From: Hyperoplus lanceolatus
Taxonomy: Eukaryota > Chordata > Actinopteri > Uranoscopiformes > Ammodytidae
DNA length: 64,000 nucleotides
Assembly (NCBI GenBank): GCA_026929865.2
Contig: CM049416.1
Span: 7,200,501 to 7,264,500 of the forward strand
Direction of reading: 5' to 3'
Part shown: one piece after another, positions 1,747-61,021 of the stretch
Layout: every line of letters starts with the position of its first letter
How positions within the stretch are numbered: the stretch's first letter is position 1
Translations under genes and position numbers: made by a program
The notes under the pieces: generated by a model
The model's database searches: none
Told to the model about the DNA's origin: nothing
Seen by the model: only the letters and a program-made list of their open reading frames with translations

Positions 1747-1752
1747 TTTATT
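1747..1752 (-). terminator. Putative poly(A) signal of the distal parp12-like last exon
   Basis: TTTATT on the plus strand reads AATAAA on the minus strand, about 120 nt beyond the stop codon at 1872. The surrounding sequence is AT-rich. This is a motif match only. Confidence 0.5.
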
Positions 1753-1871: not shown

Positions 1872-2446
1872 CTAACAGATGATACATTTATCAGACTTTG
1901 CTTTTGGGCTTGGGAGGAAAGGTGGAGTTAATGGCCTGGGTGGGCTAACTGTTGTGGTGTTTGGGTATTGGTACGAGGCTCTATTATAAGATACTGTGCT
2001 GGGTAAGAATGAGGTCGTACTGGGTTGGTACGAGGCTCTTGTTGAGTTGTAAGACGATGTGCTGGGTTGGTAAGAGGCTGTGCTGGGTTGGTTTATTGAC
2101 ACACGGGGTTGGGGGGCCGGTCTCGGTGCTGGGGCCGGTGCCGGTTTTCCTGCTGGTACTGATGCGGTAAATGAGTTGGGTAGCCCAGAGGTTTTGTACT
2201 GCAGCAGGTACTCAGGGTAGATCTGGTGCTTCTCAAACAGAACAAAGATGGAGGGGTCTAAAACTTTGTCTACACAGCTGTCGTAGAAGTTGATGTCCCC
2301 ACCGTCCTTGGAAGGAGGTTTGACAAAGTCAGGGGACCCTTTGGTGTAGTGTCCTGCCAGCACCCTTGCGATGAACATGGATTGGACAGAGTCGGAGTAA
2401 CCAGTGTAGTTGTGGGAATATTTGGCGTCCCGGGCAAAGTAACTAC
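1872..2446 (-). CDS. parp12: parp12-like terminal exon, distal copy (intact, ends in CaaX CIIC)
   Basis: The acceptor is caaacccag|GTAGTT, with the same phase as the proximal copy. It encodes SYFARDAKYSHNYTG, PSIFVLFEKHQIYPEY and then a Pro/Ala and QPSTASYQPS-rich tail of about 100 residues. The end is KAKSDKCIIC then TAG (1874-1872). Cys863 with two aliphatic residues and a C-terminal Cys fits a CaaX prenylation box. An AATAAA on this strand lies at 1752-1747, about 120 nt after the stop. This copy is the better candidate for the functional 3' end. Confidence 0.85.
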
Positions 2447-5400
2447 CTGGGTTTGGGCAAAGAACAAGATTGAAATTATATACACTATGTGGAACCATGC
2501 AAGGGACTGCCATGAACAAATTGTTTAATTATCTATCATCAGACAATTGTTAAAAAAATGTAAAAAAGGAATAAATCCGACCAACAGTATCAGTTTCATA
2601 AAAACATTTTCATGAAAGTACCACAGAAATAATCCCTCCCAATGATCACTTCTGCCTCACTACACTGTCTGCACAATTATTAGGCAAGTTGTATTTTTGA
2701 GGATTTATTTTATTATTGAACAATGAACAACTACAGTGCCCTCGGTCAATCCAAAATGTAAATGAACCTAAACCTGAATGTTTAAGAAAGTAAAAGTGAG
2801 ATTTTGTCTTTTTTAAGAGAATACATATATGCACAGAATTATTAGGCTACTATTAGTGTGCAGAATTATTATGCAACTAAATGAAAAAACAAACATTTTC
2901 CCATCTCACTTATTTATCTTCATCTGTTAAAGTGAGAATGATAAAACCACTCAACATTTACAAATAAACATATCTGACATGTAAAAAAATCAGTGACTGT
3001 TAGTAGAATTATTATTAAAAACCCAAGTGTTTTTGAATAAAGAGATCTGAGTCTGGCAGTCTTCAAAGCAGGAGATCTTTACTTGCAAACAGCAGCAAGG
3101 GTAAACAAATGTTCCATGTTGGGTACATGGTTGAATACAAAAACTGAACAGAAATAGCACTGATATTTATGGTCCAAAAGTTGTATATGCGAAGACACTC
3201 GGTTTGTGTGTCTGGCCCTCAATTTTGCTTGCGAAAGCAGAAAGATTTTTAATTAGGCAGATATTCCCAGAAACTCATATCAGCAGGTGTTATTCTTCAT
3301 ACAATGTCTGAAAACAGAATATGGGAGTCATTCACTGTGCACATGAATGTGTCATACATCTGTATGTGCCAAAGTCTTTAGTAGGCAGTTTTCTTCTTCA
3401 AGGCTAAAAAACAAGTAATCAGCAGATGTTGTCCTAAATGCAAGTTTAGCAAAACTCTTTGGAGTTCTTTAAGTTTAATGGGACAAAGTTCAACAGGCAG
3501 AAAGCTGTTTGAGCATTAAAATATTATACAATCATAAGGAAAATTAAATTCCGTTAACAGTGACCAATATAGCCACCCTTCTTTTCAATAACTGTCACAA
3601 CTGTCATTCATGGAGTTTGTCAGTTTCTTGATCTGTTGACGATCAACTTTTTGTGCAGCAGCAACCACAGCCTCCCAGACACTGTTCCGAGAGGTGTACT
3701 GATTTCCTTCACTGTAAATCTCCTGTTTAAGCAGGGCCCACAGGTTCTCAATAGGGTTTAGGTCAGGTGAGGAAGGGGGCCATGTCATAATTTTTCATCC
3801 TTAAGGCCTTTACGGGCTAGCCATGCAGTTGAGTACTTTGATGTATGCGATGGAGCATTGTCCTGCATACAAATCATGGTCTTCTTGAAAGATGCAGACT
3901 TTTTCCTGTACCACTGCTTGAAGAAAGTGTCTTCTAAAAACTGTCTGTAGGTTTGGGAGTTGATTTTGAGGCCATCTTCAACCCAAAAAGGTCCAACTAG
4001 CTCATATTTAATAATACCAGCCCATACCAGTACCCCACCTCAACCTTGCTGGCGTCTGAGTCGAAGTGGAGCTCTGTGTCCGTTACTGATCCAGCCACGG
4101 GCCCATCCATCTGGTCCATCAAGAGTCACTCTCATCTCATCAGTCCATAAAACCTTTGAAAAATCTGTCTTCAGATATTTCTTGGCCCAGTCTTGACGTT
4201 TCAAATTGTGTGTTTTGTTCAGTGGTGGTCGGGTTTCAGCCTTCCTTACCTTGGCCATGCCTCTTAGCATTGAACACATTGTACTTCTGAGCACTCCGGG
4301 TAGGTTGCACTTCTGGAATATGGCAGCACTGGAGGATAATGGATTCCTGGTAGCTTTACGTTTGATTCTTCTCAAATCTTTGGCAGTTAATTTCAAGAGT
4401 GCTCCATACCTCTAAAAGACTTTATGCAATTTTTGATTTTTCAGAGTCCATCAAACCTCTTCTTTAGCCCATTTTGCCTGAGAAAGAGAAACTGCCTAAT
4501 AACTATGCACACCTTGATATAGAGTGTTGAACTCCTTAGGCCACACCTTAACTCATTACGCAAATACACATCACCTGGTATGCTTAAATCGAATAAGCAC
4601 TCAATTGTATACACAGCTTAAAGTTGGAAAATAATATGCATACATGATATGGCCAAAATACTCACTTGCCCAATAATTGTATGTGTGTTTATCTAAGCTC
4701 CGTCAGGGGGCTTCTGGGCGTCAACCAATTGAGCAGAGCAGGTAGAGGGTGTTGAACCCTCAACCAATAACAGCGAGGGGGCAATCACCAAGGTGAGGTT
4801 TGGTATTGGTACGAGGCCATTCTTTAGGTGTAAAAAAATGTGTGTGTGAGGGGGGCTAGAAGGGGTGACGACGCAATGGTATAGGGGGGGGACATAGGCT
4901 GGGGGGCGAGGCTGTTCTCGAGTTGTAAGATAATGTGCTGGGCTGGTAGGAGGCTGTGCTGGGTTGAAACATTGACACACTGGGTTGAGCGGCTGGCCTC
5001 GGTGCCTGGGCTGCTCTTGATACTGGTACTGACGGCTTGGGGAGAGTGGCGGGGCGAGGCCTGGGGGCAAAGCTTGTAATTGCTACAGGCTGTTCTTGAG
5101 TTCTGAAATCAATTCCGGGGCGGGGCGGGCAGTTGCCGCCAACTTGGCACGCGGGGTAGGAGTGGGTGGGGATAATGTGCTGTGTGGGTGTGAAGTTGTG
5201 TTTGATGGGTATGAGGTTGTACTGGTTTGGCATGAGGCTGTTATCGAGTTGTAAGACGCTGTGCTAGGTTGGTAAAGGGATGTGCTGGGTTGAAGCAATG
5301 ACACACTGGGTTGGGGTGCTAGTTTCGGTGCCGGGGCCGTTGCAAGGCTTGGGTCTGGTCTCGGTGCCAAGGCTGCTCTTGGTGCTGGTACTGACGGCTT

Positions 5401-8400
5401 GGGGAGAGTGGCGGGGCGAGGCCTGGGGGCAAAGCTTGTCATTGCTACAAGCCTGTTCTTGAGTTCTGAAATCAATTCCGGGGCGGGGCGGGCAGTTGCC
5501 GCCAACATGGCACGCGGGGTAGGAGTGGGTGGGGATAATGTGCTGTGTGGGTGTGAAGTTGTGTTGGATGGGTATGAGGTTGTACTGGTTTGGCATGAGG
5601 CTGTTATCGAGTTGTAAGACGCTGTGCTAGGTTGGTAAAGGGATGTGCTGGGTTGAAGCAATGACACACTGGGTTGGGGTGCTAGTTTCGGTGCCGGGGC
5701 CGTTGCAAGGCTTGGGTCTGGTCTCGGTGCCAAGGCTGCTCTTGGTGCTGGTACTGACGGCTTGGGGAGAGTGGCGGGGCGAGGCTTGGGGGCAAAGCTT
5801 GGCATTGCTGCAACGCTGTTGTTAAGTTCTAAGATAGATAGATCTAAGAAGTTTTTAGACAATGTGCTGGGTTGGTCAGATGCTTTTCTGGGTTGAAACA
5901 TTGACACACTGGGTTGGGAGGCAGGTCTTGGTGCAGGGGCCAATGCCAGGGCCAGCCTTGGGGCCGTTATCAATGCCGGGGCCAGTATTGGGGCTGATCT
6001 TGGTGCCACAGTCGGCATTGGGGCTGGTCTCGGTGCCAGGACCAGTCTTGATGCTGGTACTGACACGGCACCAATCGATAAGACAGGCAGATCTGAGGTT
6101 TTGTAGTGCAGCAGGTATTCTGGGTAGATCTGGTGCTTCTCAAACACAACAAAGATGGAGGGGTCTAAAACTTTGTCTACGCAGCTGTCGTAGAAGTTTA
6201 TTTCCCCGCTGTCCTTGGAAGGAGGTCGGACGAGGTCTGAAGACCCTGTGGTGTACTGTCCCACCAGAACCCATGCAATGAACATGGATCGGACATCAGA
6301 GTTACCGGTGTAGCTGTGGGAGTATTTGGCATCCCGGGCAAAGTAACTACCTGGGTTTGGAAACAGAACGAGATTAGAATTTTTATATACACTAGGACTA
6401 GGTGGAACCATGTCAGGGACTGCAACAAACAATGTTTAATTAATCGATCATATGTAATGTGTTTTCTACCATACTACATAGGAGAAAGTATGGCTATTGG
6501 ATTGCAAAGAGAGTGTTAGGAGGTAAAGGAGAACAGGAAAGTGTCAAAATAAGAGAATAGGAATCTTTACAAGAGCCATACCCAAATTTCTAGTGAGAAA
6601 TATGATAAAAGATCAAACCATATAATATCCTTGGCAGGAGATGGGTCAGCTTTCCTACAGGCCAAATTGCTCTTTGTAGCCGGAAGTCAATGTTCATCAC
6701 AATGGAGTTTAACTATAGATCGGGTTTGTCCAGTTGCCATACAGTATGTGTCATGTCTAAGTAATGCTGGGTAGGATTTGGAGAAGTTTTTCCAAAAGTG
6801 ATCCGTCAATAATCTGTGAATGTCTCCAACATTGTCGGCTGACGCGAGTGGTAGGCCATATTTGGAATAATTGGTTTCGCAATCCTCCTCTGGCCTGAAG
6901 CACATCTGCGCTGAAGGCTGCATACAGCTTCTCTTCCTCTCAAAATTTATTTCGGCAAAAAGTCTTTCAGAACCAGTGTGATGGAGTTTCTCATCATAGC
7001 CATGAATGAGCAGTTTTGTCACCTTGTGAGCAGGATCTAGTACAATTGGATGGTTGACTCCCATTTGAGCTGATCAATGTGCTGCAACGGACCTCCAATG
7101 CTCCAGTGGAACTGCACATTTCTTCAGATAAATAGAACCGGCTTTGGAGATTGCAGACATGTCCACACCAAAGCTGTTCATCTTTGCTTGTTTTAGTATT
7201 TTTTTATGAGCGATAAGGTGAATTTAATCTGAAACATATGAGCAGCAGTGGTGGAGGGTAATGGAATGCCTTGTAGATGCCTTTACTTCTTTTGAAGAGA
7301 TAGCACAGGATAAGTGTGATAAATGCTAACTGGCTAGCAGTAAAGGCATGATGGATGGTGAAAGTTTGTTAGGGCATGTGACAAGATAGAGTGTTTTACA
7401 GCAGGACCAGCAAGACAGTGGGACCCTTGATTGACTTCACACTGTATTTGCAGATGTCTTCTTTTGCAGGTCACACTTGTCACACCTTCATGTGACCCAG
7501 CGCAGCGCCAACAACTTTGGTTTTCTTTAATCCAGGTAATCATTTGATCCTTTGTGAGGTTAATACATCCAGGACATAAAGTGCAATATGCAGAGGGACG
7601 GTGGTTTTGACTTTGTGAATAAAGATGGAAGATGGAACGGATCCTCTTGGGTTATTTGCGACATGTAGAATTGTCGGCAGAGCAGGTAAGGACTTAAGAG
7701 GGGCCACACTGAAGTCCTTCTTCTTGTACGTAGGTGCTTGTACACAAAGCACCTATCACACAGGTTTCATCTGATGTCAATAACAATAGCAATGACAATA
7801 GCCTAGCTCTGGCTCAAAAGACCATGTTAAATAGAGGAGGTTCAGAAAGGATGGTTTGCCATTTCATGGGCATCGGTCAGAATGCAATGCAGTGAAGAAA
7901 ACTTGAATTTTAACAATGATTTATTCATCCAGTTCAAACAATTGAGAGAAAACCTAGATGGGTTGGCAATGAATCCTGCCGCCTCGTGTGATGATCTACA
8001 AAAGAGTGACTGAAAGGGTGAGCCATGTTTATATAGGGAGAGAACAGGTGCACTTTATCAGGTCAATGAGCAGTGAACATATTGTGAGAATCACTACCAA
8101 TCAGTGATAATAATCAGGACATGAGGTGAGTGGGTAAGAGAGAAAAAGGAATTGTCAAAATAAGAGAATGGGAATCTTTACTACACTATACTTTAAAGAG
8201 AAGCAGCAAATCCTCACAATTGTGAAGCTGAACCTCGCAAATGTTTGGCACCACATTTAAAACTGCAATCTATTGAATTCAGGGAAGCTATGACCAAGGT
8301 CAAGGGCCGAAACATATCACTCAGACAATACAGCTTCAAAGTCGGATAGGAGTAAGACTAAAGTAGTATATGTCTTCAACTGACCTTTGCCAAAAGCGGT

Positions 8401-11400
8401 TCCATGAGTTCCACAGAGTCTCCAGTCGAAGTTAAAGTGGCAGATGACGTCCACGTGTTTAGAGTCAGTACCATGAAAAAGCTTTTTTTCTGTCACATTA
8501 CTTGCAGCATTGTTTCCCTTCATCTGCTTCTTCTGCCTTCATGTAGGAAAAATAAATCAAGGCTTCATTTAGGAATGGGTGCTAATGTAAAATGAGAGCA
8601 TGCACATTTTGCTCAACAGATACTGACATGGACTTTAGAAGATAATGGTAAACACTCAATGGTTAACAGGAAAACAAGTATACAACAGTTGAAAATAATG
8701 TAAACTGTCTCAATAATATCAATTTAAAAAGGTGGAGACAGCAATTCTGGAGATTGTTATCAATATCACTTTGTCAAAATCTGAGATTAATAATAATAAA
8801 CATCTATTGGTGTTTTTCCACTGCCACTTTTGGCCTTGCAGAAAAAAGTCATGCCGTGCCGCGCCCAGGAAGGACCAGGATGGAGCAGGCTGGTTATCAT
8901 AGCTGATACTATGATAACCTAGTAAAGAAGATGTCAAACAAAGGTTTGGAATAAGGATGTGAAACAAATGTTTTTTTGGAATTAAGTTTCCAGACCGAAC
9001 ATATAACCTAACACTTACCACTGAAAGACTTCCCAGAGAGCTTTGTTCTGAATCCTCTCGATTTTGACTATGTCAAAGCCTCTCATGGTTTTACAGAAAA
9101 GAGTTTCAATCTCATTAAATTCATCTGAGGAGCGCTGCAGGGGGATTCGCTGGAAAAAACATATAGAAGAGAAAAGGGAGTTAATTTTTGGTGGATATGG
9201 AAATTTTCTAGCAATTTCTGAGGTTGTTTCTGAGGTTGCGAGTTGTCTGCCAACAGGATAATAAAAGCTGGGTAGGGGCGCTCGTGGTGTAGTGGTTAGA
9301 GCATCCCCCCCAGAAGACTCAATTCTTGCAGAAGACCCGGTTCGAATCCGAATTTGAATCAGTTCTCTGCATGTCATTCCCCTCTCTGCCCCATATGATG
9401 TCTGTCTCTGCACTATAAATAAACCATTGAAAATGCCAAAAAATATCTTAAAAAAAAATAAAAGTCTGGTTGAGCTACAACCCCAAATGATCAAAGGAAA
9501 AAAAAATATGCAGAAATTGTGAGATAAAACACACCCTTCTGAAGTAATTAGCAACACTAGAAGGTCACAACTTTGCTTGCCTGTTTTAAGTCAGTTACTC
9601 TTTTGCGGTTACCAACCATTTTTCAAAGCAATCCATGTTTTTTTTTGTTTTTCTTGTAGCACGGCACTTCACTTGACCGTTGTCACTACAACTCTCATTC
9701 TGCAGGGTATCTACAAGAGGGAGTTGCCTCAGTTTGAACTACTAGTGTAACATGCGGTCATTGAGTGTATGTGTGAATGCTTTGTTTTTATTATAGCTGG
9801 TAGCAGTATTGCAGTATTTATTGCCTTCCCTGCCTGGGACAGTCCACGTCAACACATCTAGATATCAAAACTGCTGCTGTTACTATTTTTTTTCCTGCTG
9901 GAAATGCAAGTTGGATCAGAACTGCTCTTTGGCTCAGCAGGTGGATGTCATTGGCCTAGTTTTGCATGCTTGACGTCCCTGACACTGGGTGTGTCCTTGA
10001 GACATTTCTCTCACAAGTGTTTTTCTTTCCTCCCAGGCAGTTGTTTTTCTCAACATCCGGATAAAGCCGGCGCAACTTTAATTTTTCAGATATAGGTTAG
10101 CACTATAGTTTTTATCCAACATTACTCTTACAGTCCAGCAATGGATCAATACACATTAATGTGGAACTGACTGAAAATAAATAACAGTGACATGTGTTGA
10201 AGCAACAGGTCACCCAGTTTAACTTTACTCACTACTCTTTTAACATGCTTTATCCACAATAGGAAAAGTATAGATGAAGGCCATCAATGTGATATTTTCT
10301 AAAGCTTTGTTATTGTTCATTGAATGCATATTAAAACGGTAGCTCTGGCGCCTTTGCATATAATATAGTATTTTTTTGAGTTTGTAGTGCATGCATAGTG
10401 GGAAGATGACAAAAAAGCTTTCAGATGGTGGATACAATCTTCCAACAATACAATGCATAACTTAATTTAGGGACCTATCAAATGCTAATTCATTAAAGAT
10501 TTTTTTTTTTTTAAAAGTCAGATGATGGTCCAGCAACATCTTAGAAAAATATTGAAGTCCTTGACACCTTTAAATGGACTTTGCCAAAGTATGTGGCTGT
10601 GGTTTTTCATAGTCACTTTTTTAGTCCATGTTAGAAGTACAGGACAGATCACCAACTTATAACCAGAATCGCACCGTGTTGACGCTTATTTAGGCTGTAC
10701 AAATTATGATGACCATATACAGTATGTAGCTGGGACTAAAATGTCTGCACGTCATCATTTCGATGTTGATAGTTTTTATGTTATGTTTAGATTTCCAGGT
10801 TGCGGCCAAACAACACTTCACTGACTTTTCCCCCTTTCCATCAGGAAAAAAACATTCAGACACAAACAATTATAAACTTGTTTTTCTAATGTATTAAATA
10901 GCATGTGCATTGAAATACTTCCGAAGGCTGGGCACAAACGGTATCATGCTGTTTGAAGGTGTGGTGTATTCACAATACCTTGTATCCTGTTTGAGGAATC
11001 TGTGTCTTCTCCCAGTGGTCTGGCACAGTGGTGAAACTGACTTGACCAACAGGTCTTCTGTGGTCAGAAAGAAAACTAGATTAGTTTTACTGTGAGGTGG
11101 TTTCGGCGAAATGCTTTCATCAAGCGAGATCAACACGGTGTATTTGTGGATGTGGTACCTCACTCTCGCTGTTCGGACATCGGCTGCGGAGACAAACTTG
11201 GGAAGTCTTTTCACAAGTCGCTTAGTGCCATAACGCTTGTTTGTTTGTATCATGTCTGAATGGGTGAAAAAAGACGACTCGGGTATAACACTGCGTGAAC
11301 ACCTTGAATAGCACAGAACTACACACACATAGATCAGCTACTACGTTTACCCGGGAAACTGAGTGAATAGGCCTGCGAGCCGGCCGTGAACTCCACCACA

Positions 11401-14400
11401 TCTTGGTCATTTTCCAGAAACTTCTGCTCCAGCTGATCGCTGGACATGTCTGCTTGTTTATGTTCAGCAGCCTGCAAGTAAGTTCAGAGTTGGATGAGAA
11501 AAGTGGACAGCAATGTCCTGTCTAGCCATGTACGCTAAATATGAATACTACTTAGTTTAGCTTAGCATGTGTCAACTTTGTGAACATGCAGTAGGTTCCA
11601 ATATTAAATTCTGGTGGAGATCTGCAGATTTTAATCAGAATTTTAATATTCTGAACTTTTCCACTTCATTTTGTTTAGAAAAGTGTAAACCTGGAGGATA
11701 AATGATATATTATTAGGAAGTGCTCGATTTGATCAGCTTCAGCTGAAGGGGCCCCACCAAATGCTTTTAAAACTTAATTTCCTAGTGCATCAGGCCAACG
11801 TGAGCATGGCAAATTTAAATTCATGCAATCTGGATACAATCTCTGCTCCTGCTCATCTCTGCCTCTGTTATTTGCATGTAAGGCTATACAAAAGAAGATT
11901 AAAACTGAAAATCTATGTGCATGTGTATAAGCTTAAGCAAGAAAACATAGCCGGGTAAAAAGAAAGTTTACTGTAACATATAAGAGATAAAAACGGGATA
12001 TAGGAGTCCCGGAGGTATGTAACCAAATGTACTTCAGTTGTCAGTTCAGAAAAGGTTTAGTAGACCGCGAGTGGGAAGGATGAAGGGAGAAAATCCTGGA
12101 GTAAATTGAGTTTTTTAATTTCTGTCCCTTTAAAAAGTTTGAATGTGACACTGCTCCAATGACTGTTAGATTCCACAGACCACTGGCATCAGAAGGCTAA
12201 AATGACATAAACATGTGTTCAAATCAAAACAAAGATTGGATAGAATCACTTCTTTCTCATGATGTGAAAATGTCTTTGCGTTAGTTTACAGGTTGCTGCA
12301 GTGAGGTGTTGTCACTTTAGGATGTCCCTGAAACGAAGTGACCATCTTTGGCCAAAATCAGCTCCACTATAGCTACACATTCGCGGCACCAGCTCAGTGT
12401 GAGTTAAATTTTCAATTAAACTGTTGGCTGCTGCTGCTGCTGTGCTTTCATGCTGCTCTGCTGTTTGCTAAGTCACTCCTAGGGACCGATTATTATCAAC
12501 AAGGGATAATTGCAATGTTATTATTATGAGGCGTTATTGGAGAGTAACAAATGGGATCGGCCAATACACGCCTCGATTGGTTGCAGATTGTGGATACTGG
12601 GACAACCCTATTTCAGAATATTTACCGTATGTACTGAAGCATAACATAACTAATATCTCCCAACGTAGGGAAAAAACAGCTATCATCACGACCTTCAAAA
12701 TGCAAAACACGAACATGTCAGCAAACATTTAGACTATTTAAACATCCAGCAGTTAGCAACAATAGCATGTATTTGGAGTTGTGATGTGTCCACATGATGC
12801 ATGTACGTCCAACACTATTTTAGCTCTGTACCATCCTATGAGGAAAATATCTAATTGTTAAAGATCTGCTATTATACTACTTCTCTGGTCTTAATTTCTC
12901 ATTAATTACCACTATAGAGCAACCTGACACGAATCACAGCACTAAAAACTATGTAGATGTTCGGGAAACTCTTCCTCTCAACTGGGCGCTCTCAGCATTC
13001 TCTGTCAACACTCGGTTTTGTCCTTCTCCGCCCCCTACTGCAAACTTTAGTATGGTTAAACATGACTATAAATCATTATAACAACGTTTATAGGTCATAA
13101 AAGTTGAAAAAGCATAACAGGTGCTCTTTAAGCCACCATTAAGCCACAACTTAGGAAAGTAGAAAAACTAAAACAAACCAAGTACCGATGCAGACAGTTA
13201 CTCACAGTTGCTGCGTAAATGTTCCACTTTCCGAACTCATCCTCCCAGTACCAGAGCCACTGGGTGGTGTGGATGAAGTCTGGCTGAAGCAGAGCGTTAA
13301 TGGTAGAGAGTCGTCGTACTTTGTTCACACCACGGGTCATCGTGTCAAAATGTATCCGTTCGACGTTTCCACTATGGGCAGCAAAATGAATAGGTAAACT
13401 GTTAATTCATATTATTCAGACCAGTTTGAAAGCAGGACATCTGTTGCACTAAACATTACCAATGCTAAAACAACCGATCAATATTGGCCTTTTCCATAGC
13501 TGATATGTCATTGATTGGTACTGAATGATTTATGTCTATTAAATTGTGTTTTTCTTAGAAATTGGATCTAATATTAAAAGCTAAGGGCTCTGTCAGATTT
13601 GATTAAAAAGTGTTTGGTGTGTAATTCTAAAGCCTGCAGTAAACTTTGACTCATCTTGCGTTAAGGAAGTTGTTCCACATATTTTTGAGTAATCCTTTTA
13701 ATCACATTTATTGCAGTTAGATAAAACCACACTCGACACCACCACAAATATGTAGAAGCAGTTAGCAACAGTCGGGTTAGCTTAGGGCCAAACTAGCCAT
13801 TTCAGATCATTGTAGGTTTTTATGCTACGCTAAGCTAACCGGCTTTTGTGTGTACAGTAGCTTCCTATTAACTGTACATACATGAGTGGTATCTGTTGTC
13901 TTATCTACCTGTGAATAAGCGCATTCCTTAAAACATCCTATTCTTTTTAAAAGAGCTATATTAATTTATGTTGCTTTTCGAATATTGCATGAAAACTTTC
14001 CCATTTAAAAGTTCACACCGAAATGATTGGAAATAGAATACACCTGGAAATAATTGACTTTAAAATAAACATCTTCCCACAACTACAACGCCGCAATCCC
14101 ATTAAGCACCTGTATGTTATTGTAGGGTTACAGTAGTCCTTCTCGATCGTCTCATTATCTGGCAAGGCGGTCCATTTATCCTCCTCTCTGACCTCCCACA
14201 TGTACGGCATCTTGTGATGAGCTTTGAAACATCGCTCTAAGAACACATCGGTCGTAAAGCAAGATCAAATGTCAACAGATCAATCTGAAGAACACAAAAA
14301 CATAAGTGTAATTATTGCTGTTGTGATTGATGATCTATCATTGGATTACTCACCCTCATGTATACAGTGTCCTTTGATGAAGTACATGCATATCTCAGTT

Positions 14401-17028
14401 TTATCTAAACAGACAAAAGAGTGCATTATGAAATTATTTTTTGAACACTCAGAATACCATACCCATCATCACTGTTAAGATCGTCGCTGACGGCAGCAAA
14501 GAAGTCGTTACTTGTTGTCCGTGGCAGCTTTTGATGGTTGCCCCTGTCGCCACCTCTCCCTCTGTGGTCCGTGGAAGCTTGAGAAGGACTTTGTGTTTGT
14601 TCCCGGCTAGGACCGGTGTCACTGCCTGAGTAAGAGTAAAATTTGGAGGCAGCAGCAGCAGAGGTATCGTTGGTGGAGGAGCTCAGGTCGCTGCCCCCGT
14701 CGGTGTACAGATCCAGGTCATCGCAGCCATCAAAGGGATCAGAGGAGTCACTGTTGTAAGAGGTTTGTCTCTGCTGTTGAGGGTTGCCCTGGTTTCCTCT
14801 TTTGCCTCTATTTCCCCTGTTGCCCCTGTTGCCTCTGCCGCCCCGGTTGCCGCCTCTCCCCCTCCCTCTCCCTCTTGCTTCAGTGTTGTTGGCCGCAGCA
14901 GAGTTGCCTCCTCTGTCATGGAACCTCAAAGCCGATTTGTTTGCGTAAACAGGCTTCAGGGAGAAAATGAGGGTGTCTGGCACGCCTTTTTTCCGCAAGA
15001 GGTTTAAAGGCTGTGGCGCGTTAAAATCATGAACCCTGAAGCAGCTGCAGTCGGAGTTCAGGTGCCTCTCACAGATATGCAGCCTCTCGCAACCATGACC
15101 CGCCTGACACCGGCCGAACTCCCCGTCACCATTGTTGTAATCATAACACACCTGGTAGATGGTGTTTAGGAAAGAAGGGAAGATGGTAAAAATCAAGAAA
15201 AGCAGAAATCGAATGTAAGAAAACAGCTAACGAGACATTGTAGTGGTGATGTGTAACATCTCCTTTAAGATGATTACTATGAAGTGTGTATTATGTACTG
15301 TGTAATCAAATCAGAGTATGGAATATTACAAAAACACTGTTAGTTTTGGTCCCATGTGAGCGACGATGTGTAGACTCACGGGAGGCAGGAGTGTGTTGTC
15401 ACACTGCAACAGCAGGGTGCACAGCTCAGTCCTGCTCAGGGTCTCCAGCTCGTGCAACCTCAGGGTCTCTTCATTACGAGCAGAGTGCAGCTCATGGGAG
15501 AAGATGCATCCTCTCCTGTCGTTGAAGAACACAATTCACAAGTTTCAGTCATCAGTTTAATGTTTCGTAACTACAATACATTCAATTTAGCTGAAGGGAG
15601 AAAGTATTGAACGATTAAGAACGTAAATCATGAATAGGCCAACAGGTGTGAAGGAAGTTCTTTTATGGTTGGAGGTCAACGCAGGTAGAAGAATATTTCA
15701 GGAGACTTGGATGAATTATTATATTATTAAGCCATATTTATTACAGGCCGCTTGGCCAAGGAGAAACGGACTGCAACTTCAATTCTGACAAACCCTTCCT
15801 GAGAGCTGTGTATTAACCTTGTGCTATCTCTAACACCTCCCCGGCTCGGGCACCAAGCGTACCAATGTTTCGGTTCAGAGCTGAACACAGTGACAGTGAA
15901 CCATAACATTCTGGAGTAGAAGGAGATGAGACTTTATCTATAAAGCTGTCCTAAGTGTCTCCTAACAGACTCCAAGGCTGACCTTGAGTCTGTGAGAGAC
16001 AGACACACAAGACAGGTATAAATGCACTACCAATCTTTACCATTAATATTACAACTAAAGACTGAAAATTCCCTCACATCATGGTCATAGGCCAAAGTAG
16101 TGTTCATATTCTAAAACACAATGGACATACAATAAGCGAAAACAAACGCTACTGGCAGCTCCAAACCGGTAGAAATCCACGTTTGAGGGTTTCCCACTTG
16201 CCTGGTATAAAACTATAATATCTAGCTTCTAACATAGGCTACTGAGAGGGCTAAAGGTCCTCATTGTATCAGAACACATAGGCTACGACATATCTGAAAA
16301 GTTAGACTACACTTCGAATATCCCCCCAAAATCTCTGACTGTTCTATCTTTGAAGCTACTTCAAAGTGTGACGGACCATTACACTTCAGCTGTTTATGTT
16401 AGTAAATTAGCCTTTCAAGCTACACGGTGTTAATGTTTGTTTAAATGACGGGGCCACAGTTGTCTAAAGGCCTTTAAAAACGTAGGCTATCATGGCTACA
16501 GCAAATGTTATGCAACACATTAAATTACACTACAACGCCCAAACCTGCATCAGTGTTATCCAAATAGCTTAATTAGGCCTACATATAAAAAACAACTGTA
16601 AAGTTTTGAATTTCAAAAATAAAAGTGCCCTTTTAAAACAAATGAGATATCTCTGAAGGAGACGTCCCCTCTAAACCCACAAGTAACCATTGCATCAGTT
16701 TATTGTTAAAATATTTCCCAAATAGGCCGCATTCATTATTTAACAAACATATTTACCTCGTCTGGGTGTAAGGACATGATCCGGTGAAGAGGAAGTTTTT
16801 ACACAGATGCAGCCGCTGGCAGGCTCCTTGACAGTCTTTGACTCGGCACAGTGTCAGTTTGGTCCTGGCCACCACCTTCGGCTGCCCGAAAGGACAGCAC
16901 AGAGCGAATTTCTCTTGGTTTTTGACGATTTCATTTGTCGAATCGCCCAAACCGAGATTATACGTCAAGAAATCCGTCTCAACCGATCCTTGGCTGGCAC
17001 AGATGGCCTTTAAAACCTCAGCCGCCAT
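1872..17028 (-). CDS. parp12: PARP12-type zinc-finger mono-ADP-ribosyltransferase gene, 12 coding exons
   Basis: The coding exons on the minus strand are 17028-16757, 15515-15380, 15151-14458, 14404-14354, 14236-14110, 13371-13206, 11471-11351, 11255-11159, 11057-10979, 9149-9019, 8536-8385, and one of two terminal exons (6350-5083 or 2446-1872). All junctions are GT/AG and the phases match throughout. The predicted product is 866 residues with the distal last exon or 1097 with the proximal one. Domain order is CCCH fingers (about 60-170), an RGG-rich linker (about 200-365), a further CCCH finger (about 370-392), a WWE region (about 440-525) and a PARP catalytic domain (about 590 to the end). 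This order, and segments such as ALWEVFQWQKKQMK and FHGTD, match PARP12. Family knowledge says PARP12 transfers single ADP-ribose units, is interferon-induced and acts at Golgi or stress granules. The catalytic triad reads His646, Tyr678 and a Leu after YPEY, which is the mono-transferase pattern. Which fish paralogue this is (a or b) cannot be told. Confidence 0.9.
2663..4689 (-). mobile_element. Tc1/mariner-like DNA transposon, decayed
   Basis: Imperfect terminal inverted repeats (gcacaattattaggcaagt near 2671 and acttgcccaataattgt near 4664-4680) are flanked by TA on both sides. A minus-strand transposase is spread over several frames: MKLTAKDLRRIKRKATR and WTDEMRVTLDG at 4396-4040, QDNAPSH near 3860, and SPDLNPIENLW within 3788-3585. 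These give the three DDE positions. Frameshifts at about 4045 and 3790 inactivate it. It sits exactly between the two copies of the parp12-like terminal exon. Confidence 0.8.
3585..4396 (-). pseudogene. Tc1-like transposase pseudogene
   Basis: The helix-turn-helix and catalytic segments remain readable but lie in at least two frames. The DDE residues come from WTDE, QDNAPSH and SPDLNPIEN. At least two single-base slips break the frame, so no full-length transposase can be made. Confidence 0.8.
5061..5785. repeat. Near-identical 363-bp tandem duplication in the PARP tail
   Basis: The segment 5423-5785 (363 bp) is followed by a 362-bp copy at 5061-5422 that differs at only a few positions, with one base missing near 5090. 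The unit is 121 codons and encodes a block rich in PKPSVPAPRAALAPRP and QPSTSLYQPSTASYNS. More diverged copies extend to about 4690 and up to about 6050. Confidence 0.85.
5083..6350 (-). CDS. parp12: parp12-like terminal exon, proximal copy (repeat-expanded tail, no CaaX)
   Basis: The acceptor is caaacccag|GTAGTT. It continues the catalytic domain with SYFARDAKYSHSYTG, DSCVDKVLDPSIFVVFEKHQ and YPEYLLHY, so the active-site Tyr and the Leu at the third triad position are present. An approximately 330-residue Pro/Ala/Ser/Thr tail follows, built of repeats including a 121-codon unit. The frame stops at 5083-5085, just after a one-base deletion relative to the neighbouring repeat copy. The undisturbed frame would run on to about 4856. 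No clear AATAAA lies between the stop and the transposon at 4689, so use as a real last exon is uncertain. Confidence 0.75.
6687..7064 (-). pseudogene. BEL/Pao-type LTR-retrotransposon pol remnant
   Basis: The translation contains HPIVLDPAHKVTKLLI and GYDEKLHHTGSERLFAEI, resembling the zinc-binding region ahead of integrase in BEL/Pao pol. LLTDHFWKNFSKSYPALL then resembles the post-integrase segment. The integrase core between them is missing. It lies in the intron before the proximal terminal exon. Confidence 0.6.
7334..7543 (-). pseudogene. Probable BEL/Pao gag zinc-knuckle remnant
   Basis: ITWIKENQSCWRCAGSHEG followed by CKRRHLQ resembles the W-x-CWRC-x-H knuckle of retroelement Gag. It lies upstream, on the same strand, of the pol remnant at 6687-7064, which is the expected gag-pol order. 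The frame is short and broken. Confidence 0.45.
8385..8536 (-). CDS. parp12: parp12-like exon 11 (catalytic core with HGT motif)
   Basis: It encodes WQKKQMKGNNAASNV, then EKKLFHGTDSKHV and FDWRLCGTHGTAFGKG. His646 in FHGTD is the NAD+-binding histidine of the H-Y-[E/I/L] triad. The acceptor is catgaag|GCAGAAG and the donor GCAAAG|gtcagt. Codon 676 is completed identically by either terminal exon. Confidence 0.9.
9019..9149 (-). CDS. parp12: parp12-like exon 10 (start of PARP catalytic domain)
   Basis: It encodes RIPLQRSSDEFNEIE through KIERIQNKALWEVFQ, the first helices of the PARP catalytic fold. The acceptor is ttttccag|CGAATC and the donor CAGTG|gtaagt, which is a consensus site. Confidence 0.9.
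9274..9462 (+). mobile_element. tRNA-derived SINE
   Basis: It has an A-box-like head (gctcgtggtgtagtggttag), a B box ggttcgaatcc at about 9339, a short unrelated body and an A-rich 3' tail at about 9450-9462. It lies in the intron between parp12-like exons 9 and 10. Confidence 0.7.
9463..10978. other. parp12-like intron 9, remainder
   Basis: No exon fits the required phase. Only short homopolymer tracts (for example T-rich at 10500) are seen. Confidence 0.5.
10979..11057 (-). CDS. parp12: parp12-like exon 9 (linker to catalytic domain)
   Basis: The 79-nt exon was recovered by phase matching. The acceptor is gaccacag|AAGACC and the donor TACAAG|gtattg. It encodes RRPVGQVSFTTVPDHWEK then TQIPQTGYK, the counterpart of the W-x-IPDPGYK linker of PARP12. 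Its 3n+1 length is exactly what joins exon 8 (phase 2) to exon 10 (phase 0). Confidence 0.85.
11159..11255 (-). CDS. parp12: parp12-like exon 8 (end of WWE region)
   Basis: The 97-nt exon encodes DMIQTNKRYGTKRLVKR then LPKFVSAADVRTARV, the conserved basic stretch after the WWE domain. The acceptor is cattcag|ACATG and the donor GTGAG|gtacca. Confidence 0.87.
11351..11471 (-). CDS. parp12: parp12-like exon 7 (WWE region continued)
   Basis: The acceptor is acttgcag|GCTGCT and the donor CCCGG|gtaaac. It encodes residues 483-522, with DQLEQKFLEND then VVEFTAGSQAYSLSF, matching the beta-strand core of PARP12 WWE domains. Confidence 0.87.
11472..13205. other. parp12-like intron 6
   Basis: AT-rich intron of about 1.7 kb with a small (CTG)n run near 12433. 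No repeat family or hidden exon recognised. Confidence 0.5.
13206..13371 (-). CDS. parp12: parp12-like exon 6 (WWE region start)
   Basis: The 166-nt exon encodes residues 427-482. It includes QWLWYWEDEFGKW, the Trp/Trp/Glu signature of a WWE fold, which binds ADP-ribose-containing ligands in this family. The acceptor is gcccatag|T and the donor GCAACT|gtgagt, ending in phase 0. Confidence 0.88.
14110..14236 (-). CDS. parp12: parp12-like exon 5 (finger 5 end, linker to WWE)
   Basis: The acceptor is ttcttag|AGCGATG and the donor ATACAG|gtgctt. It encodes ERCFKAHHKMPYMWEV followed by WTALPDNETIEKDYCNP, the conserved PARP12/PARP13 segment after the last finger. Confidence 0.87.
14354..14404 (-). 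CDS. parp12: parp12-like exon 4 (51-nt micro-exon, half of finger 5)
   Basis: The micro-exon encodes KTEICMYFIKGHCIHEG between acceptor gtttag|AT and donor GAGG|gtgagt. It supplies the first two Cys of a C-x7-C-x6-C-x3-H finger completed by the next exon. It was found by joining phases and is too short to stand out as an open frame. Confidence 0.85.
14458..15151 (-). CDS. parp12: parp12-like exon 3 (CCCH fingers 3-4, RGG-rich linker)
   Basis: The 694-nt exon covers residues 137-367. It starts VCYDYNNGDGEFGRCQAGHG and contains two further Cys/His clusters. These are followed by a run of Arg-Gly and Gly-Asn-Arg-Gly repeats, a short Gln run, then an acidic/Ser-rich stretch. Mammalian PARP12 as I know it does not have so long an RGG tract here. 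The donor choice TATG|gtattc is fixed by the phase of the next exon. Confidence 0.88.
15380..15515 (-). CDS. parp12: parp12-like exon 2 (finger 2 completion)
   Basis: The acceptor is acgacag|GAGAGG and the donor CTCCC|gtgagt. The 136-nt exon completes codon 91 and encodes residues 91-136. It starts with RRGCIFSHEL, which finishes the second CCCH finger. The helical ELxTLSRTELCTLLLQ segment that follows is typical of the PARP12/PARP13 N-terminal module. Confidence 0.88.
15516..16756. other. parp12-like intron 1
   Basis: The segment 15725-15910 read on the minus strand (tgttatggttcactgtcac... with aataaatatgg near its end) resembles the end of a solitary LTR, but I cannot find paired boundaries. 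The rest is unremarkable AT-rich intron. Confidence 0.35.
16757..17028 (-). CDS. parp12: parp12-like exon 1 (start codon, N-terminal CCCH fingers)
   Basis: This exon encodes residues 1-90 plus two bases of codon 91. ATG lies at 17028-17026 in a good context (GCGGCTGAG follows). It holds a winged-helix-like start, then the first C-C-C-H cluster (CRVKDCQGACQRLH) and the first half of the second. The donor is GAG|gtaaat. The start agrees with PARP12 family N-termini and lies about 120 bp below an ISRE. Confidence 0.9.
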
Positions 17029-24828: not shown

Positions 24829-27117
24829 TTGATTTGATTTGATTTGATTCAATTTATTTCAGACATATCAAAAAAAAGAAAAATGAAAAGCATGAAAATA
24901 CAATAAAAAAAAAATATGTTCAAATGATTTCACAAAAGAAATAAAAATAAACAAAATAAACAAACGACATATTGAATTGATATGCCTGAAAAGGAGTAGG
25001 AAGAAGTATAAACTTATTTGATCCTACCCCTTTTCCACAGCTCAATAATTTATATTTATTATATTAGCTTCCTGTGTTCTTTATAATCCTGTTTACAAAT
25101 CTATACAATTGGTTATACTATATTTGATACAATCCATACAAATAGGCTATACAATTTGGTACTATAATTATTATTATTTTTTTTATATATATTTATATAA
25201 TCCATATATCTATATATATTATATACATACATCTATATAAAAATATATCTATTATATGCATTTATACAATCCATATATCTATATATTTATATTTGTACAA
25301 TTCACATATCTATATCTAGGCTATATATATACATGTATCCACATATCTATACAATCAATATATCTATATACAAATATTCATTCAATATGATGCATCATAA
25401 TTACACTTTAAATATATATATATAATATATTTACAATCTAAAAAAAAAACATATGTTTTTTATTATTACTATTCTTTATTTTTTAATATACTTTCCTTCT
25501 TAAATCTCTCCCTCATCCCTGTACCTTTTAAAAATCATTGCTTTGAATTTTCTTTTGAACTGAATCATGTTTGGACATTGCTTTAGCTCGGTGCTCATAC
25601 CATTCCACAGTTTCACACCACCAATAGAGATGCAATGACATTTTAAAGTCATGCGTGCAGCCAGTGTCTTAAAGTTTAACTGATCCCTCAAATTATAACC
25701 ACCGTCTCTGTCAAAAAAAAGTTTTTGAATGTTACCTGGTAGCAGTTTGTTTCTAGCTTTAAACATGATTTGTGTAACTTGATATTCAACCAGGTCTTTG
25801 AACTTTATGATGCGGGAATGTAAAAAGAGGAGGTTGGTGTGATCATAATATCCAGCTTTATTGATTATTCTTACGGCTCGTTTTTGAAGTGTGACTAGTG
25901 GTTGCAGTGAGCTTTTGTAAGTGGTCCCCCAGACCTCCACACAGTAATTTAAATAAGGTAAGATCATTGAACAGTAGAGAATATGCAATGATTTGTGATC
26001 CAATATATGCTTTGCTTTACCCAGGACTGAGATGCTTCGTGACAGTTTAGATTTAACATGTTTTATGTGAGGTTTCCAGCATAGCTTGTGGTCTATTGTC
26101 ACACCCAGGAATTTATTTACATACACTCTTTCAATAATAACACCATCTATCTTAACATTTACATCACTATTTAAATTACAATTTCCAAACAACATGATTT
26201 TTGTTTTGCTTAAATTCAATGATAATTTATTATTGTCAAACCACCTTTTTAATTTGCTCATTTCAGATGTAATTGACTCCAGAAGCTGCTGCAAGTCCTT
26301 TCCCGTACAAAAAATATTTGTGTCATCTGCAAATAACACAAATTGTAAAATATTCGATGTTTTACATATGTCATTTATGTAGAGAATAAAAAGAATTGGC
26401 CCTAACACTGACCCCTGGGGGACCCCACAAGCAATGTCCAAACAAGCTGACACGTATTCACCCATCTTCACAAACTGTTGCCTGTTCTGTAGATAGCTCC
26501 TCAGCCAGTTTAATACAACCCCCCTGATACCATACCGTTCTAATTTATTAATTAGTATATCATGATTTATGGTATCAAATGCTTTTTTGAGATCAATAAA
26601 GACACCAGCTGCATATTTCTTTTGGTCCAGGGAATTTGTAATCTTTTCAATTAGCTCAATGACCGCTAATGAAGTGGATCGGTTGGGTCTGAAGCCGTAT
26701 TGGCTGTCAGTTAGTATATTGTGTTTATTGATGAATTTGTTAAGTCTAGCAGCAAATACTTTTTCTAAGATTTTTGAGAATTGAGGAAGCAGTGAAATAG
26801 GCCTGTAGTTTGTGAAGTGGTGTTTGTCTCCAGTTTTGTACAGCGGTATGACTTTTGCAATTTTCATTTTTCTTGGGAATTTACCAGTTTTAAATGATAA
26901 ATTACAGATGTGCGTTAATGGTTTCAAAATTCCGTGAATTACCTCTTTGACTATTCTCATATCAATGTCACTATAGTCAGTAGAAGTTTTATTTTTGCAT
27001 TATTGGACAATCTCTATAATTTCACTCTCTTCCACTGCTGTTAGAAACATTGATTTTGGATTAATGTCTATGAAATCATTAATCCTGTCATCAGATCTCA
27101 CAGGATTAGGTATTTTC

Positions 27118-30032: not shown

Positions 30033-61021
<30,989 letters not shown>

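Follow-up and report, generated by a model that had tools for sequence, protein, structure and literature searches.

Human PARP12 is described as a Golgi-localised mono-ADP-ribosyltransferase (Catara 2017, PMC5656619), which relocates from there to stress granules once poly-ADP-ribose is bound by its WWE domain (PMC5656619). Its catalytic triad is H-Y-I, and mutation of the His (H564) or the Ile (I660) is reported to have abolished activity (Catara 2017, PMC5656619). Human PARP12 lacks a CaaX box (Kmiec 2021), as the earlier note on this DNA had stated, and Kmiec 2021 report that human PARP12 to which a CaaX was added showed no activity against HIV-1. In ZAP (PARP13), a relative of PARP12, the residues in contact with CpG are K89, Y98, K107, and Y108 (PMC8102003). 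A survey of ZAP and PARP12 genes attributes the acquisition of the CAAX box to tetrapod ZAP (Simon 2025, PMC12204182). For the teleost relatives of ZAP and PARP12, which are PARP12a, PARP12b, and ZC3HDC1L, the portions of Goncalves-Carneiro 2021 considered here do not mention a CaaX end. We found no mention of a fish PARP12 with CaaX in the portions covered of the literature, including PMC12204182, PMC8568172, and PMC9888277.

The fish gene presented here has in common with human PARP12 the CCCH fingers, two WWE domains, and a PARP domain with H-Y-I; it differs by a 106-residue tail ending in CIIC and by a duplicated last exon. With ZAP-L, as that form is described, it shares the order of domains and a C-terminal CaaX (CVIS in ZAP-L) after the PARP domain, as well as a potential CaaX-free form corresponding to the short form of ZAP. 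However, the PARP domain of ZAP is described as catalytically inactive, whereas the fish protein retains H-Y-I, and ZAP-S has no PARP domain, whereas the form made from the proximal last exon of the fish gene would retain it.

The two forms of OAS1, p46 and p42, arise by the choice of the 3' end. They likewise give one antiviral protein an isoform whose CaaX is prenylated and another isoform without it (Kmiec 2021), although OAS1 is unrelated to PARP12. Such pairs of isoforms, OAS1 p46/p42 and ZAP-L/ZAP-S, are the nearest working parallel to the arrangement proposed below.

Gene model

The window (the whole stretch of 64,000 nt that was analysed) contains a minus-strand gene, which we assembled from 11 exons, their GT/AG sites and phases being in agreement, into a PARP12-type product of 849 aa. 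Each of the 10 upstream exons has a GT donor, and an AG acceptor precedes all exons except exon 1. The frame of the distal last exon is open back to the AG acceptor at 2446 and joins the ten upstream exons in phase. The features of the locus are as follows.

16757..17028, minus strand: exon 1, start codon and beginning of the zf-CCCH_PARP12 match
15380..15515, minus strand: exon 2, remainder of the zf-CCCH_PARP12 match
14458..15151, minus strand: exon 3, more of the CCCH region (assigned by aligning it to ZAP), then a linker rich in RG/RGN
14110..14236, minus strand: exon 4, WWE_4
13206..13371, minus strand: exon 5, where WWE_4 ends and the second WWE domain begins
11351..11471, minus strand: exon 6, second WWE domain
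11159..11255, minus strand: exon 7, last part of the second WWE domain
10979..11057, minus strand: exon 8, RPVGQVSFTTVPDHWEKTQIPQTGYK, with a similar segment in the paralogue on contig C6
9019..9149, minus strand: exon 9, beginning of the PARP catalytic domain
8385..8536, minus strand: exon 10, catalytic His629 (FHGT)
5083..6350, minus strand: proximal last exon (11P), same catalytic half as 11D, longer repeat-rich tail ending in ELKNSL, without CaaX
1872..2446, minus strand: distal last exon (11D), carrying Tyr661 and Ile725 in the second half of the PARP catalytic domain, then a tail rich in Pro, Ser, and Tyr, and the CaaX end; AACCCAG acceptor
1872..1910, minus strand: final 13 codons of 11D, SPKAKSDKCIIC and then stop; Cys846-Ile-Ile-Cys849
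1747..1752, minus strand: candidate poly(A) signal AATAAA, 119 nt past the distal stop
4993..5830, no strand: 363-bp tandem repeat, 2.3 copies, reaching from inside the 11P tail to beyond it
1996..2092, no strand: degenerate 21-bp tandem repeat, 4.6 copies, encoding part of the distal tail
2673..4680, no strand: Tc1-like element separating the two last exons; 17-nt inverted ends (2673-2689 and 4664-4680), approximate outer limits

Placing exon 8 was the most difficult step: four stretches passed a simple splice filter, two of them being one exon with differing starts. The chosen exon has the correct phase, and its Trp-containing segment DHWEKTQIPQTGYK resembles the segment found at the same place in the C6 paralogue.

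The linker of exon 3 (14458-15151), which follows the CCCH region, is made of RG/RGN repeats, RGRGRGRGGNRGGRGNRGNRGNRGKRGN. This RGG-like stretch might add RNA binding.

Protein identity and catalytic site

The Pfam search, which was run on the protein lacking exon 8, revealed zf-CCCH_PARP12 (PF25261, 65.8 bits at a cut-off of 27), two WWE domains (WWE_4 PF23466, 64.7 bits, and WWE PF02825, 53.8 bits, both above cut-off), and the PARP catalytic domain (PF00644, 103 bits, above cut-off). Among 53 distinct solved sequences, the best match was to the catalytic domains of human PARP12, up to 240 bits, against 111-112 bits for those of ZAP (pairwise scores only). The domains and this best match bear out the view of the earlier note that the protein is of the PARP12 type. 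The gene is probably a fish paralogue of PARP12; among PARP12a, PARP12b, and ZC3HDC1L, linkage to ETV6 leads us to guess that it is PARP12b.

When aligned with human PARP12, the catalytic triad consists of His629, Tyr661, and Ile725 (DPSIF), i.e., H-Y-I. An active H-Y-L site had been proposed in the earlier note. The catalytic residues are indeed of the active kind, but the third aligned residue is Ile, so the H-Y-L reading is ruled out. By the retained H-Y-I residues, the enzyme looks active.

Two tandem last exons

The gene carries its last exon twice in tandem (proximal copy 6350-5083, distal copy 2446-1872), and the same AACCCAG acceptor stands before each copy. Each copy supplies the C-terminal half of the catalytic domain, including the Tyr and the Ile, and only the distal one has the CaaX end and a nearby poly(A) signal; neither AATAAA nor ATTAAA is present within 1 kb after the proximal stop. 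Over the 88 codons compared, dS between the copies is 0.40 and dN/dS is 0.21 (bootstrap 95% interval 0.11-0.41). In simulations with one copy neutral and the other copy given three different settings, a dN/dS this low was obtained in 1, 0, and 1 of 400 runs; when both copies were constrained, 72% of 400 runs reached the observed value. Therefore, both copies were coding sequences for the greater part of their shared history, although one of them may have been lost recently. If both are used, the two copies would represent alternative terminal exons.

An assembly artefact or a recent copy as the source of the two last exons is ruled out by the dS of 0.40 over 88 codons and by their location in one 25.6-Mb contig. 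A second full gene between them is also ruled out: exons 9 and 10 are each single locally on this contig (C22), and the gap is occupied by the transposon. The HTH_Tnp_Tc3_2 match of this Tc1-like element (24.7 bits) lies under the curated cut-off of 31.5, and its frames are in pieces.

Past the proximal exon, no counterpart of the distal CaaX codons could be recognised, except for a 30-nt piece of the tail itself, which scored 35 against a maximum of 24 in 50 shuffles. The two copies may or may not have shared an ancestral CaaX.

The 363-bp repeat (4993-5830) is recent and lengthens the proximal tail; two of its units differ at 6 of 120 codons. The proximal frame stops at 5083, inside the third, partial unit.

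The C-terminal CaaX motif

The protein terminates with SPKAKSDKCIIC followed by a stop (window positions 1910-1872, minus strand), and CIIC occupies residues 846-849. The CaaX consensus is fitted by a Cys at position -4 followed by two Ile. At the extreme C-terminus CIIC thus has the form Cys-aliphatic-aliphatic-X and fits a CaaX of the farnesyl type. As the earlier note had suggested, this end follows lysines, which make up three of the eight residues before the Cys; the number 863 given there for this Cys has to be replaced by 846 in the rebuilt 849-aa model. The prostacyclin receptor is reported to be farnesylated at CSLC, i.e., at a CaaX with X = Cys (PMC3566133), and by this precedent a Cys in the last position may be acceptable for farnesylation.

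The frequency of such ends was estimated with a strict pattern (C, a permissive a1, V/I/L/M, and S/M/Q/A/C/T), which was picked after the motif had been seen. Among the 5183 stop-to-stop frames in the window that are 4 aa or longer, it fits 11, the PARP12 frame included (~0.2%); with a minimum of 30 aa it fits 3 of 1289 frames, and with a minimum of 60 aa a single one of 321, namely the distal end of PARP12. A very loose pattern, C..[SMQACTLFIV], fits 158 of 5183 frame ends.

The tail extends for 106 residues after the catalytic domain. Its frame remained open in 169 of 5000 base shuffles, which makes the open frame modest evidence. Compared with three units of the proximal tail, the distal tail gives dN/dS of 0.77, 0.66, and 0.62, against 0.21 in the catalytic half. 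Since the tail is weakly constrained, fast-evolving, and made of repeats, its C-terminal end could be incidental.

Relatives of the last exon

The genome that contains the window (807 Mb, 527 contigs) was searched with the distal last exon, which matches at least 15 places, three of them within its own gene. Among the matches listed, the 12 other PARP last exons all reach their first in-frame stop without a CaaX of the strict pattern; six ends were read by eye (L004-L009) and six by pattern. The searches of this genome gave one other PARP12-type gene, on contig C6, with CCCH, WWE, and PARP exons; it ends in IYPEYLIEYS, with no tail and no CaaX. A scan of the viral contig collection for relatives gave none, and a scan of the genome contig collection had a single match, located in a bacterial bin (L001), which contains in-frame stops and which we read as chance.

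Discussion

The CxxC may represent the chance end of a fast-evolving tail built of repeats, and the gene would then encode an ordinary soluble or Golgi-recruited PARP12 without meaningful prenylation. The relaxed constraint on the tail (dN/dS 0.62-0.77 versus 0.21) agrees with this explanation, as do the repeat arrays held by both tails and the CaaX-free ends of the proximal exon and of all 12 other PARP last exons among the matches listed. However, the strict pattern is rare among frame ends of the window (11/5183, ~0.2%), and CIIC follows a lysine-rich stretch and closes the reading frame of a gene whose domains are intact and whose relative, ZAP, has the same device; we consider a chance end somewhat unlikely, although it is a substantial alternative. 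It is much less probable that CIIC stays unprocessed and serves as a PDZ ligand or for palmitoylation, with no role as a prenylation signal. The unprenylated CSLC end of the prostacyclin receptor is reported to bind PDZ1 of PDZK1, but the receptor is farnesylated on the same CSLC (PMC3566133). The arrangement of CIIC itself, with the Cys at -4 and two Ile, also speaks for a CaaX, and an unprocessed end seems very unlikely to us.

The use of the last exons is another matter. The proximal copy comes first in order, has an open frame, and is preceded by an acceptor as good as the distal one (each has 15 pyrimidines among the 20 nt upstream of the AG), so that it might be mainly used, with the distal copy being a little-used or decaying duplicate and the CaaX form nearly absent. 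Against this, an Arg of human PARP12 is kept in the distal copy (MFLARVL, MFIARVL) and replaced with Trp in the proximal one. The distal copy is also slightly closer to human PARP12 (53 of 90 aligned residues matching versus 51 of 89) and is the only one with a nearby poly(A) signal, the proximal copy being followed by the transposon. Moreover, the simulations with one neutral copy gave the observed dN/dS in just 1, 0, and 1 of 400 runs. Predominant use of the proximal exon is thus improbable, and we infer that the distal exon is used in mRNA.

On balance, we think it likely that the distal last exon carries a genuine CaaX box and yields a farnesylated, membrane-bound, catalytically competent PARP12; the prenylation, membrane binding, and activity of this form are predicted. 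Farnesyltransferase would add a farnesyl group to Cys846 post-translationally; Ile-Ile-Cys would next be removed and the Cys methylated. The lipid together with the preceding lysines would keep the H-Y-I mono-ADP-ribosyltransferase on internal membranes by means of the long flexible tail. The tandem last exon without CaaX could yield an otherwise similar form lacking the anchor.

No ZAP is known from ray-finned fish. One can suggest, with much reservation, a fish-specific switch between membrane and soluble states of an active PARP12, in which the duplicated last exons would give a farnesylated endomembrane form and a mobile CaaX-free form; such alternation is a tentative idea, which we regard as rather unlikely.

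The earlier note compared this end with the CaaX of ZAP-L, which it described as directing ZAP to endomembranes and strengthening its antiviral activity; an antiviral gain of that kind is not supported for the fish protein. In the alignment of the fish protein to the 6uei structure, read by eye, the first two CpG-contact positions of ZAP keep their Lys and Tyr, and K107 and Y108 are replaced with Ile and Phe. Because two of the four contacts differ and the CaaX-bearing human PARP12 is reported as inactive against HIV-1 (Kmiec 2021), the ZAP-L analogy fails for the target; it holds for the device.

If the CaaX is genuine, membrane anchoring arose more than once in the antiviral PARP12/ZAP family, and it arose on a copy that retains its catalytic residues. 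An anchored CaaX form is predicted to stay on membranes under conditions in which human PARP12 moves to stress granules. The two natural last exons could then separate the effects of membrane placement from those of ADP-ribosylation within a single gene.

Neighbouring genes and other loci

The ETV6 orthologue occupies 47064-61020 on the plus strand; its pointed domain matches ETV6 structures best, and its linker exon and ETS-domain exons were recognised by eye, with an ETS-type frame at ~59.7 kb. An open reverse-transcriptase frame of 499 residues (RVT_1, 140 bits), presumably from a LINE-type element, is located at 25503-26999 on the minus strand.

Two of the last exons matched elsewhere in the genome, L007 and L008 (G000:C23:7543551 and 7558587), which we take to be PARP14/15-like, lie ~15 kb apart and have identical translations; this pair may have arisen by tandem duplication in recent time, or one of the two may be a duplicate produced by the assembly. 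Two tandem genes, presumably PARP11-like, are situated on the same contig as the PARP12-type gene (L022, G000:C22:15155000-15164900).
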